IMG/VR virus record: IMGVR_UViG_3300017783_000103 | Location: 1 to 33,041 of that record | Length of the DNA: 33,041 nt | Strand: one strand, 5' to 3' | From: a virus | Shown here: positions 10,058-33,041 of the stretch, piece by piece | Layout: every line of letters begins with the position of its first letter | How positions within the stretch are numbered: the first letter of the stretch is position 1 | Made by a program: the position numbers and the translations under genes | The notes under the pieces: model-generated | Seen by the model: only the letters and a program-made list of their open reading frames with translations | Told to the model about the DNA's origin: nothing | Databases searched by the model: none

Positions 10058-10069
10058 ATTATCTCCATT

Positions 10070-10206
10070 CAGTTTGCCCAGTTTGCCCAGTTTGCCCAGA
10101 AATCCCCCAATGCCTTAGTTTTAGGGGGCGGGTTAGGTGGTAATCCCGCTAGGGGTGGGGGGTTAAACAAGGGCTTTAGGGGCTAACGGGGCATTCTGGG
10201 CATTCT
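10070..10206. repeat. Inverted arrays of a 9-bp unit (AGWWTGCCC)
   Basis: Three head-to-tail copies of AGTTTGCCC lie on the + strand at 10071-10097. Two copies of AGAATGCCC lie on the - strand at 10189-10206. They face each other across about 90 bases rich in G-runs (GGGGG, GGGTTAGG, GGGGTGGGGGG). No gene covers the 150-base gap 10058-10207. Iterated sites facing each other suggest binding sites for a regulator or replication initiator between an unknown gene and the ninB-like gene. Confidence 0.75.
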
Positions 10207-10207
10207 G

Positions 10208-10502: not shown

Positions 10503-11657
10503 TTACATTGGGTTCCATCGGTAATACTTCTTTCCGTGTGCGCCTCTACGCTCCAGCGTGAGGTTGTTTCCCTTCAGAAGATCAATGCAGTTGCGAAGCA
10601 TCTTCCTTGTACAGCCGTTGGGATTCACCTCATGGTCGCTCAGCAGGTCAAACAACTCTGACTGCGCCCATAGCTTGCCTTCCTTCATCACACTACTCAG
10701 CAGGATGTACTCATCTTCGTACTTGGTCATGGCCTTGCCGATGTTGATTTGAGACTTCTGCTTCTCTTTTAGCTCGCTGATGTCATCGGTACTCATGAAC
10801 TGGACAGAATCCACGGACTCTTCGTAATGAACAACTGCGCTAGTTTGCTTGTACTTGAACCCACCCTCGAAGCTGATCTGACTACGATCTTTTTCATTGA
10901 TTACTAGAAGTTCTTGATAGGCGGCGAACTTATCGTTTACTGGGTCAAGGCCAAACATATTGTCTACGTCTGACTTCAGATCCCCTACACCTTCATAGAT
11001 CAAGCGACCGTCCATGCTTCTGTGCTTGTTGCAGTGGCCTAATAGAATGACTGTACCACCTGCCGCCGCAAACTCACGAAAAACGTGTAGCACGTCCCGC
11101 ATATCACCCTTGTTTAACACTGGCGCAAACTTCTTTAGCGTGTCACAGATGACGATCTTGCCATCGGCTTGACCCTCTTCGCGTATTGCACTGAGTAGCC
11201 GTAGCGCATCATCGGTGTTTCTCAGCATAGGATCTGGCGAGTTAGCCAAGGTGATCATGGTCATCCCGTGCTTCCTGCCCATCTTCGCCTTCTGGAGTAC
11301 ACCCTTAGCACCGTCGTCTTCGTTGAAATAGATCACGTCGGAACCTTTTATGAGGTTATTCCGAATGCTCTGAAATAGGTTGCCCAGTATCCATACTGTC
11401 TTACCTGCGCCGCTAGGTGCGTACACAAGGGTGACTGTGCCGGTCGTAATCATGCCTGGAATCACGTCTCGCTCTTTAGCAAGGCGCTCCTCCATCTCTT
11501 CAATGCGGTCATTGACTGCCGCGAACATGAGTTTTGATAGTGCTGATGACGTTCCGTTTTGGTGGGTGGCTCCGTTGATATTCGGGGTGGGTATTTGAGT
11601 GGGGTTTACTTGGATTTTATTGAGTTCTTCGCAGTACATTGCCCAATCATCCTGCAT
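10503..11657 (-). CDS. RecA-fold ATPase, RepA/DnaB-type helicase
   Basis: A 384-residue P-loop ATPase. Walker A is APSGAGKT (residues 80-87), and Walker B is the hydrophobic strand KIVICD ending at D172. The segment TVILLGHCNKH (about 202-212) is the sensor-like strand of RecA-fold ATPases. This arrangement, with the fold starting near residue 60 and a C-terminal winged-helix-like region (about 300-384), matches AAA_25/RepA-like hexameric helicases used in phage replication. It lies alone with NinB/NinG and faces the annealing-type protein across a regulatory gap. With no DNA polymerase or primase recognised, it is the best candidate for the phage replication helicase. AAGGAG precedes ATG 11657. 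Confidence 0.85.
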   Translation of the reverse strand: MQDDWAMYCEELNKIQVNPTQIPTPNINGATHQNGTSSALSKLMFAAVNDRIEEMEERLAKERDVIPGMITTGTVTLVYAPSGAGKTVWILGNLFQSIRNNLIKGSDVIYFNEDDGAKGVLQKAKMGRKHGMTMITLANSPDPMLRNTDDALRLLSAIREEGQADGKIVICDTLKKFAPVLNKGDMRDVLHVFREFAAAGGTVILLGHCNKHRSMDGRLIYEGVGDLKSDVDNMFGLDPVNDKFAAYQELLVINEKDRSQISFEGGFKYKQTSAVVHYEESVDSVQFMSTDDISELKEKQKSQINIGKAMTKYEDEYILLSSVMKEGKLWAQSELFDLLSDHEVNPNGCTRKMLRNCIDLLKGNNLTLERRGAHGKKYYRWNPM

Positions 11658-17409: not shown

Positions 17410-17601
17410 TTAGATGTATCGGTGCGATGGCTTTAGCTCTTCGAGAGCTACTTGTATTCCCATCTTCTTAATTAGTCTGATCGCGTGATCAGTGAACGTC
17501 TTAGTGCCTGCAAGCTCTGCCAGCATTTGAGCGTGTTCACATACTGGGTAGATCTTGTCCTGTCCGTAGACGTTCCGCTTTGTAACGATGATTGCTTTCA
17601 T
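17410..17601 (-). CDS. Unknown small protein, first gene of the leftward block, 63 aa
   Basis: I do not recognise this protein. It starts MKAIIVTKRNVYGQDKIYPV and continues with two helices (EHAQMLAELAGTKTFTDHAI, then RLIKKMGIQVALEEL). The strand-then-helices plan is common among small phage regulators and inhibitors, but no function can be assigned. Its leader has the recurring CAACAAACAGAGAGA motif. It would be the first gene transcribed leftward from the 17602-18046 control region. Confidence 0.65.
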   Translation of the reverse strand: MKAIIVTKRNVYGQDKIYPVCEHAQMLAELAGTKTFTDHAIRLIKKMGIQVALEELKPSHRYI

Positions 17602-17665
17602 TGTGTCGTCTCTCTGTTTGTTGATGACAGGTACAAGCTACTATGGGACAGCTCCGGATTTTCAG

Positions 17666-17705
17666 AATGTGACAAAACTTTTTTTGTTTTTTTGCAAATG
17701 TGACA
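17666..17705 (+). repeat. Direct repeat AATGTGACA, 31 bases apart
   Basis: AATGTGACA occurs at 17666-17674 and 17697-17705, three helical turns apart, flanking a T-rich run. The second copy is inside an AAATG-TGA-CATTT inverted repeat (17696-17708). TGTGA is the half-site of CRP/FNR-type regulators, although no full palindromic CRP site is present. Position suggests an operator or activator site for the leftward accessory block. Confidence 0.5.
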
Positions 17706-17769
17706 TTTTGGGTTGGGTTGGCTGATTGGTCTATGGGGGTACTTCATCCACTCTCACTCTTCTCATTCC

Positions 17770-17830
17770 GCATCGCATCCTGCCTTGCATATTGCATCGC
17801 ATATCGCTTTGCAATTTGCCTCGCATTTTG
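17770..17830 (+). repeat. Three-copy 24-bp iteron-like array
   Basis: Copies begin at 17770, 17794 and 17818. The first two start with GCATCGCAT and the third with GCCTCGCAT. Copies one and two match at about 18 of 24 positions, and the third is partial. The exact period places sites on a similar face of the helix. A G-run/CG-rich tract follows. Tandem iterons in the main noncoding region suggest an initiator-binding site or regulatory array. Confidence 0.65.
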
Positions 17831-18046
17831 GGACGGGGGGAGGGGGTTGCGTGCGCGCGCAGGCGCGGGTTGCCACCCAGACACAAAAAAAAGTCATTTA
17901 CGCCTTATTCCAACTCTTTGATCCACCTCATGTTTTTATAACTGTTTTGCATTAGCATTCTTATCAGGTAAGGTGAGGGTTGTAGAGTCCGTAGTATATA
18001 GTTAGGATAGGGAGGGCGGGTTGGTTAAGTACAGCCTTAAAAATTT

Positions 18047-18505
18047 ATGACAGACAAGAGAGTAGAAGTACCCAAAGACGATGGTTTGACTTACAAGCAA
18101 CGTCGTAAAGCGCAAATAAAAGAAGAAAAGAAACGCACCAAACCCAGCAGGCAAGCATTAGCCGCTAACTCTAAAGGTGGTAGGGGTAAACCAGGCCGTC
18201 CTAAAGGTGATGCGGGTATAATTAACGAGTACAAGGCTCGTATGCTGGCCTCTCCTAAATCCAAACTAGTCTTAGACACCATATTTGATGCCGCGTTAGA
18301 TAATGACCACAAGAATCAGTCCGCCGCATGGAAGTTAGTCATGGATCGGATATTGCCTGTAGCCGCATTTGAAAAAGATGTCGTGCAAAATGGCGGTAAA
18401 TCTGCTATTCAGATCAACATTACTGGGGTTGGCACGGCAGATGTTAAAGAAATTGACCCTAACACTATCCAACCTACAATTATTGAACAGATACCAGAGG
18501 ATTAA
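18047..18505 (+). CDS. Putative terminase small subunit
   Basis: The 152-residue protein has a very basic N-terminus (YKQRRKAQIKEEKKR, then GGRGKPGRPKG) followed by NEYKARMLASPKSKLVLDTI, then helical segments ending near WKLVMDRILPVAAFEKD. The basic GRPKG-type segment plus a helical domain, first in the packaging block and 0.96 kb upstream of the large terminase, fits small terminase subunits that recognise the packaging site. It could instead be a DNA-binding protein of the same block. No strong ribosome-binding site is visible upstream of ATG 18047. Confidence 0.6.
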   Translation: MTDKRVEVPKDDGLTYKQRRKAQIKEEKKRTKPSRQALAANSKGGRGKPGRPKGDAGIINEYKARMLASPKSKLVLDTIFDAALDNDHKNQSAAWKLVMDRILPVAAFEKDVVQNGGKSAIQINITGVGTADVKEIDPNTIQPTIIEQIPED

Positions 18506-19134: not shown

Positions 19135-19472
19135 AGTTTTCTCACGGTGACGCCCTAACCGCAGGGTCAAGTAACACGATATTAGACGTACCAACAGGCT
19201 ACGATGCTATTGTTAGCTATCTGTTTATCTCAAATACCACAGGTAGCAGTAAAAGCATTGATGCTCGTTGGGTTCATAACAGTGTAAACATTGATTTTCT
19301 ATCTGGAAAAAACGTTGGCTCAAAAGATTTCTTAGAATTTGGCGGTCAGTTTGGTGAGTTCCTTGTTGCAAAAGAGGGTGACACCCTAAGTCTTACTCCG
19401 GAAGCAGGATCTACGTTTGTTAGCATCATTTCGTTTGAGCTAGTTACGGCAACACCAAGGTTGAACTTTTGA
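19131..19472 (+). CDS. Conserved small beta-rich protein, 113 aa
   Basis: The sequence is beta-rich with alternating hydrophobic residues: SNTILDVPTGYDAIVSYLFI, then NTTGSSKSIDARWVHNS, then EGDTLSLTPEAGSTFVSIIS. This is a pattern of small virion-associated or decoration-type proteins. ATG 19131 (MKFSHGDAL) is preferred over a GTG twelve bases upstream because it overlaps the endolysin stop as ATGA. The stop overlaps the terminase TTG start. The role is unknown. It could be a head decoration protein or a tail accessory, but no motif settles it. Confidence 0.7.
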   Translation: MKFSHGDALTAGSSNTILDVPTGYDAIVSYLFISNTTGSSKSIDARWVHNSVNIDFLSGKNVGSKDFLEFGGQFGEFLVAKEGDTLSLTPEAGSTFVSIISFELVTATPRLNF

Positions 19473-20722
19473 GTGACCTAAATATCGAATTACTGCCTTG
19501 GCAACAACAGGTTTGGGCAGACGATACTCGTTTTAAAATCGTAGCCGCCGGTAGACGAACAGGTAAGTCACGTCTTGCGGCATGGATGTTGATTGTTAAT
19601 GCACTTCAAGCCGATAGAGGTCATGTATTTTATGTTGCACCAACCCAAGGACAGGCCAGAGACATCATGTGGCAGACCCTTCTTGAGCTTGGTCATCCTG
19701 TTATTGCTGGTAGTCACATCAATAATCTACAGATCAAACTGGTCAACGGTGCAACCATCAGCCTCAAAGGTGCCGACCGACCAGAAACCATGCGAGGTGT
19801 CTCGCTAAAGTTCCTTGTTCTAGATGAATACGCGGACATGAAGCCCGAAGTATTCGAGCAAATTTTAAGACCTGCCCTTGCTGACCAAAAGGGATGTGCA
19901 ATGTTCATAGGCACACCTATGGGCAGGAACCATTTTTACGAATTGTACAAATATGCGGAGTTAGGGGATGATCCGACGTACTGTGCTTGGCACTTTACTT
20001 CTTATGACAATCCACTATTGGACAAGAATGAAATTGATATCGCTAAGAGGAGTATGTCTAGTTATGCGTTCCGTCAAGAATTTATGGCATCATTTGAAGC
20101 TCGTGGGTCAGAAATGTTTAAGGAAGATTGGGTTCGGGTCGAAGCTGATAAAGATCCGACCGGAGACTACTACATCGCCATCGACCTCGCCGGCTTCGAA
20201 GAAGTCAACAAAAAGCGCACCAAAAGCTCAAAGCTCGACGAAACGGCAATCGCCGTCGTCAACGTCTCGGAAGAAGGCTGGTACGTCGAAAACATCATCC
20301 ACGGCAGGTGGACGCTCGACGAAACCGCGATCAAAATCTTCCAAGCAGTAAGGGACTACAAGCCTATATCGGTGGGTATTGAAAGGGGCATAGCCAAGCA
20401 AGCGGTTATGTCTCCCTTGACTGACTTACAAAAAAAGTACGGCACGTTTTTTCGGGTGCAAGAACTAACCCACGGCAACAAAAAGAAGACCGATCGGGTC
20501 ATGTGGGCGCTACAAGGTCGTTTTGAAAACGGCTATGTCACATTAAACAAAGGCGATTGGAACGTAAGATTCCTTGACCAACTGTTCCAATTCCCTGATC
20601 CTTTGACGCATGACGACTTAGTGGACGCTTTAGCGTACATTGACCAATTGGCTCAAGTAGCTTATGACTACGAATACGAAATAGACGACCACGACATCTT
20701 AGACATAGTGGCGGGATACTAA
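19469..20722 (+). CDS. terL: Terminase large subunit (packaging ATPase-nuclease)
   Basis: A 417-residue protein. The ATPase has GRRTGKS (residues 28-34, Walker A), LKFLVLDEYAD (113-123, Walker B with Asp119/Glu120) and FIGTPMG (146-152). The nuclease half has IAIDLAG (236-242, Asp239), VGIERG (302-307, Glu305) and HDDLVDALAY (381-390). The start is TTG, overlapping the upstream stop. It packages genome DNA into the head by ATP hydrolysis and cuts it. From 20159 to about 20357, every pyrimidine-ending codon ends in C, unlike the codons on either side. That tract codes for the first nuclease motif and the inter-motif region. Confidence 0.95.
   Translation: MSDLNIELLPWQQQVWADDTRFKIVAAGRRTGKSRLAAWMLIVNALQADRGHVFYVAPTQGQARDIMWQTLLELGHPVIAGSHINNLQIKLVNGATISLKGADRPETMRGVSLKFLVLDEYADMKPEVFEQILRPALADQKGCAMFIGTPMGRNHFYELYKYAELGDDPTYCAWHFTSYDNPLLDKNEIDIAKRSMSSYAFRQEFMASFEARGSEMFKEDWVRVEADKDPTGDYYIAIDLAGFEEVNKKRTKSSKLDETAIAVVNVSEEGWYVENIIHGRWTLDETAIKIFQAVRDYKPISVGIERGIAKQAVMSPLTDLQKKYGTFFRVQELTHGNKKKTDRVMWALQGRFENGYVTLNKGDWNVRFLDQLFQFPDPLTHDDLVDALAYIDQLAQVAYDYEYEIDDHDILDIVAGY
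20159..20357 (+). other. Intragenic tract with exclusively C-ending pyrimidine codons
   Basis: From ACC at 20159 to TAC at 20355-20357, counting codons that end in C or T, 41 in a row end in C. The codons just before (GCT GAT AAA GAT) and after (CCT, GGT, ATT) use T freely. The tract is in frame within the large terminase gene (residues 231-296) and contains Asp239. Recombination with a genome of different codon preference, an assembly chimera, or selection on the DNA/RNA itself could cause it. Confidence 0.9.

Positions 20723-30783: not shown

Positions 30784-33041
<2,258 letters not shown>

Follow-up and report, generated by a model that had tools for sequence, protein, structure and literature searches.

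A 12-bp tandem array as the exchangeable core of a probable genome-end module in an uncultured phage

Introduction

Short-repeat arrays, SRL and SRR, lie near the terminal repeats of phages T7 and T3. In the iteron origins of plasmids and phages such as RK2, F, P1 and R6K, direct repeats of constant period occupy a non-coding region. Lambda-type cosB and P22-type pac sites lie beside terminase genes and carry repeats near the cut site, and clusters of canonical host sites are known from datA-like loci that titrate DnaA and from transcription-factor decoys. Direct terminal repeats of 180-183 bp are on record for T7-type phages, and assembly from short reads often removes such repeats or linearises the genome at another place, so that the repeat ends up in the middle of a contig (PMC10438801).

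Here we analyse an array of short direct repeats in a marine phage contig of about 33 kb from IMG/VR (33,041 nucleotides in all, hereafter the window). As in T7-type phages, a short repeat of about 130-180 bp appears to be present at both genome ends, together with short tandem repeats and podovirus-type genes. Unlike in those phages, the array of the window lies inside the putative repeat rather than beside it, the type of array changes among relatives, many relatives' arrays copy sites of host proteins, and a T7-like RNA polymerase did not turn up in the set of genes searched. The array is similar to the iterons of RK2, F, P1 and R6K in being a non-coding, constant-period set of direct repeats, but it has no recognised adjacent initiator gene, its sequence is not conserved, it is located at a probable terminus, and the window has another iteron locus beside an ATPase gene. 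Like cosB and pac, the region adjoins terminase genes and has repeats near a predicted cut; its core, however, does not co-vary with the small terminase. With datA-like clusters and decoys it has in common, across the family, clustered canonical host sites that are expected to exist in many copies per infected cell, whereas the location at phage genome ends and the alternating target proteins set it apart, and titration is hypothetical here.

Results

The window ends at 1-132 and 32890-33041 overlap. Both lie in a single proline-rich gene of CCACCT repeats, and towards the 3' end the sequence degenerates into poly-C; the contig is thus a circularised assembly whose break falls within this low-complexity gene. 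Rightward genes encode, in order, a TerS-like protein, an M15-type peptidase, TerL and an SU10-type portal protein; leftward genes start at 17601, and the array region is flanked by divergent genes (Table 1). Against the NCBIfam T7 terminase model the TerL scores 14.9, far below the cut-off of 150. No meaningful DNA match was found in a collection of cultured phages, to which TerL and the portal protein are only distantly related. The closest matches in a host search via genome contigs were contigs of metagenome-assembled genomes with conflicting labels and 62-83% TerL identity. At the array region there was no detectable sigma-70-like promoter and no Rfam or tRNA match. The two TGTGACA repeats, also present in several of the window's nearest relatives, could serve the leftward genes as a regulatory pair.

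Table 1. Coordinates of the features discussed, in window positions
Feature	Position	Strand	Remarks
Alternative origin candidate	10067..10207		inverted 9-bp iteron clusters: GGGCAAACT x3 (minus), GGGCATTCT x2 (plus)
First leftward gene, 63 aa, conserved	17410..17601	-	74.6% identical homologues in L319, L410 and L263
TGTGACA direct repeats x2, 31 bp apart, around T-runs	17659..17705		between module and leftward genes
Probable left cut (genome terminus), GGGGGT^ACTTCATCC	17741..17741		from contig starts of relatives; 8 nt ahead of [G/C]ACTC
Left border motif, N8-[G/C]ACTC(T)CACAC	17741..17758	+	present in relatives with unrelated module interior
12-bp array x5, variable core of the module	17770..17829	+	consensus roughly TGCnTYGCATnT
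G-run, GGGACGGGGGGAGGGGG	17830..17846	+	starts 44-52 bp ahead of the right-block anchor in about 125 units
GC-alternating spacer, closing the putative terminal repeat	17847..17870	+	by-eye alignment to the end of the 146-bp repeat of G001
Right border block, TGCCACCCAGACACAAAAAAAAG	17871..17893	+	conserved among relatives
Conserved leader with AGGATAGGGAGGGCGGGTTGG, upstream of the TerS-like gene	17894..18031	+	near relatives largely 80-95% identical in DNA
Small terminase-like gene	18047..18505	+	without family match; assigned by position ahead of peptidase and TerL genes
Terminase large subunit gene	19469..20722	+	Pfam Terminase_6N/6C, several PHROG terminases

The three near-copies that the initial annotation had reported 24 bases apart do begin at 17770, 17794 and 17818. 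Together the stretch from 17770 to 17829 comprises five tandem units of 12 bp, in order GCATCGCATCCT, GCCTTGCATATT, GCATCGCATATC, GCTTTGCAATTT and GCCTCGCATTTT. The constant period is thus real, but its true unit is 12 bp, and the 24 bp first proposed are two such units. At shifts of 12 and 24 bp the array matches itself at 33 of 48 positions; with the low-complexity proline-rich ends set aside, no self-match in the window is stronger. When the 445-bp region was dinucleotide-shuffled 500 times, this value was not reached at any period from 6 to 30 (maximum 28), and in composition-matched shuffles of an 81-bp stretch the local 12-bp value was reached once in 2000. The 12-mer forms no second array elsewhere in the window. 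The array also reads in frame within an open reading frame at 17713-17955 (ASHPALHIASHIALQF); a coding role is unlikely because the length and sequence of the corresponding region differ among relatives. We likewise rejected a hairpin function, as z-scores for single-stranded DNA folding were inconsistent, ranging from -2.2 in the window to about +0.6 in relatives (L251:3780-3915 left out).

The array lies within a module of about 130 bp (17741-17870) and of fixed borders. This module is common to about 100 distinct, dereplicated relatives, which were gathered by TerL, TerS and DNA patterns. Its frame has a left motif, GGnT^N8-[G/C]ACTCTCACAC, and on the right a conserved block containing CCCACCCAGAYACAAAAAAAG, with the variable core and then a G-run between them; parts of the frame are traceable even where TerL identity is only 65-73% (L420 and L423). 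Downstream of the right block, the window and its nearest relatives are largely 80-95% identical in DNA, yet their cores are unrelated. Two phages with a TerS 94% identical to that of the window (L082 and L083) have wholly different cores. Most relatives have unrelated sequence in place of the 12-mer array. Upstream of the TerS operon, GGATAGGGAGGGCGGGTTGG at 18005-18025 is among the most conserved stretches in the window's clade.

Contig ends of the relatives locate one border of this module to the base. Among 100 contigs whose upstream end is a contig end, the left motif is recognisable in 43, and seven of these, from seven metagenomes, start at most one base from a single point in it (six exactly there, the seventh one base inside). 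The background of contig ends near the left motif is 1-2 per 100 bp. A fixed left physical end, as is typical of T7-type genomes, is therefore seen in 7 of 43 contigs, as judged from contig ends, not virion DNA. One of the seven, G001 (35,752 bp), has the module at both ends as an identical direct terminal repeat of 146 bp, and, having passed the same cut a second time, it runs on for 146 bp and stops at the right block's edge. The full terminal repeat was seen in this contig only; the comparison gave three other exact terminal overlaps (127, 127 and 141 bp), which have the sizes expected of assembler k-mers and fall at arbitrary gene positions.

Right ends are more scattered. The contig L412 ends about 9 nt beyond the end of G001, and two near-full contigs, L362 and L146, begin 13-14 nt short of it, whereas G022 begins at the same cut and extends about 2.1 kb past the second copy of the module. 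A search with a leftward gene for right-end contigs returned mostly other phages, and a further left-motif pattern added little. Most contigs, including that of the window, were assembled straight through the module, since assemblers often delete terminal repeats or open the genome elsewhere. Breaks at strain variation are an unlikely source of the shared contig ends; such contigs should overlap the conserved flank by the k-mer length and not all begin at a single base.

Given the shared start point and the terminal repeat of G001, the array most likely lies inside the physical end of a linear genome. The terminus is well supported by these contig ends, and a T7-style short direct terminal repeat moderately so. 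By alignment, the terminal repeat of the window would be 17741-17870, with its right end less certain.

The contents of the core were counted in 100 dereplicated modules and compared with shuffles. DnaA boxes (TTATCCACA) occur at 42 sites in 12 of the 100 cores (0.1 in shuffles), in some relatives in tandem at 11 bp, the sigma-54 pattern at 35 sites in 17 cores (0.03 in shuffles), and Fur-type boxes at 25 sites in 6-7 cores (0.1 in shuffles). In a panel of 23 consensus motifs these three alone were clearly enriched, 45- to 73-fold, and the other 20 occurred about as often as expected by chance. The choice of patterns drew in part on the sequences in which they were counted, and cores from one clade are only partly independent of one another; the three consensus sequences themselves, for DnaA, sigma-54 and Fur, come from independent prior knowledge. 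The sites are strongly biased in strand (39:3 for DnaA, 28:7 for sigma-54 and 23:2 for the 12-mer).

The enrichment of canonical sites concerns the relatives only; the window's own array is assigned to none of the 23 panel motifs. Core classes are mostly mutually exclusive, and 55 of the 100 cores fall in some recurring class. The class of the window (TTGYAWNYTGC) has 11 dereplicated cores in two clades with different flanks (L005, L019, L030/L378, L095, L096, L249/L316, L251/L255/L256, L311, L318, L323 and L329), and no relatives of its 12-mer were found among plasmid iterons. A further class of site is seen in the cores of L165, L118 and L124, which have palindromes of the ACTTGTT-n3-AACAAGT type. 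Repeats of GTTCTRTTTTGG at 22-bp spacing recur in L113, L153, L306, L338 and others, sometimes alongside DnaA boxes.

A second repeat locus was found at 10067-10207, between a NinB-like gene and the gene for a helicase-type AAA_25 ATPase (10503-11657). Its arrangement beside the ATPase gene is kept in all seven readable relatives (L002, L007, L019, L198, L200, L207 and L254), and we consider this locus a strong candidate for the replication origin, better than the array. Similar 9-bp repeats of GGGCATTCT occur again between the module and TerS in many relatives (L007:8640-8680, L011:4159-4200, L100-L107, L200:12172, L201 and L204) and are absent there in the window.

Discussion

The explanation that we favour, and hold to be probable, is that the 12-bp array is the interchangeable core of a phage genome-end module that comprises a terminal repeat and sites for a host protein. 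In this scenario, the terminase would make one cut in the concatemer at GGGGGT^ACTTCATCC and, most likely, a second one near 17870; both ends of the packaged linear genome would then have a repeat of about 130 bp with the array in it, as in the T7-style arrangement. The border motifs and the G-run may be part of the signal for cutting and packaging. The core would then consist of tandem, same-orientation putative sites for a DNA-binding protein. Given that the slot is filled in relatives by DnaA boxes, Fur boxes or promoter elements for sigma-54, this is most likely a host protein, one of the binders that the initial annotation had considered. The first leftward gene would have one genomic copy, the right-hand one, about 140 bp upstream of it. 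We suspect that the sites could recruit host factors to the incoming DNA end, or shield it, and could affect the earliest transcription. By analogy with other tailed phages, packaging from the TerS end, if it occurs here, would make the right end the first to enter the host.

The array had originally been read as iterons of a replication origin, where an initiator would bind (or would bind the DnaA boxes of relatives) and open the DNA near the G-run or an A-run. As a constant-period, protein-site-like array in a non-coding control region the initial description holds up, and the 12-bp period of the array recurs in about ten relatives that share its class, while most relatives have other cores and the array as such is not conserved. 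DnaA boxes in 12 of 100 relatives, some in tandem, would also suit an origin. However, in the other relatives the slot contains sites for sigma-54 or Fur, or none that can be recognised, it is located at a base-precise contig terminus, and what is conserved instead is the iteron locus beside the ATPase gene. The neighbours of the array are a small conserved gene and terminase genes, not an initiator gene, and the ATPase gene is about 6 kb away. A local minimum in cumulative GC skew does exist near 17 kb, as an origin there would predict, but gene direction switches at the same place, so the minimum is not independent evidence. We conclude that the array is unlikely to mark a replication origin. 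A role in packaging only, with the array as a terminase-binding element of a pac (headful) or cos site, as in cosB, is unlikely, too. The TerS-like and TerL genes adjoin the module, the left end is precise to the base, and the extension of G022 past the second copy would also fit headful packaging from a pac site. Yet the core can be wholly different where TerS is still 94% identical, as in L082 and L083 compared with the window, so TerS is unlikely to read the core; the conserved part is the border motifs, and the motifs enriched in the core match host proteins.

The divergent genes on either side, and sigma-54-like elements that mostly face the leftward genes, could indicate a promoter or operator region in which the core is a set of host-regulated sites for these genes and the contig termini are unrelated. 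We regard this as very unlikely, since several such sites in an array would be unusual for a promoter, the sites for Fur and DnaA share no regulatory logic with sigma-54, and no sigma-70-like promoter was detectable. Least probable of all, and to be given hardly any weight, is that slippage or recombination at genome ends maintains the core as neutral, satellite-like DNA. Its fast turnover and its tandem, divergent copies would be in keeping with such DNA, but not the enrichment of just three canonical host motifs in a panel of 23, nor the recurrence of the same 12-mer in two clades with different flanks.

Returning to the genome-end module with host-protein sites, a more general reading is possible, which we put forward tentatively and regard as somewhat short of an even chance. 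A widespread group of uncultured aquatic phages may possess a terminal repeat with a rapidly exchanged cassette of tandem host-protein sites that capture host proteins at DNA ends. The targets would be DnaA, sigma-54, Fur and others, such as the protein that may bind the window's 12-mer, and the ends could be those of incoming or of replicating DNA. End protection, entry, early transcription or titration are roles that such a cassette might play. Literature searches returned, among searchable papers, no precedent for arrays of such sites in phage termini and no description of a genome-terminus cassette.

From the perspective of method, contigs from unrelated samples that share one start base offer a way to locate physical genome ends in metagenomes. 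If the cassette reading is correct, the ends of phage genomes would be more than packaging landmarks and would carry exchangeable sequences aimed at host proteins. These would provide a testable link from uncultured phages to the regulators of their hosts and could hint at host identity. They would also provide a new answer to the question of how linear phage DNA survives and starts its expression on entry into the cell.
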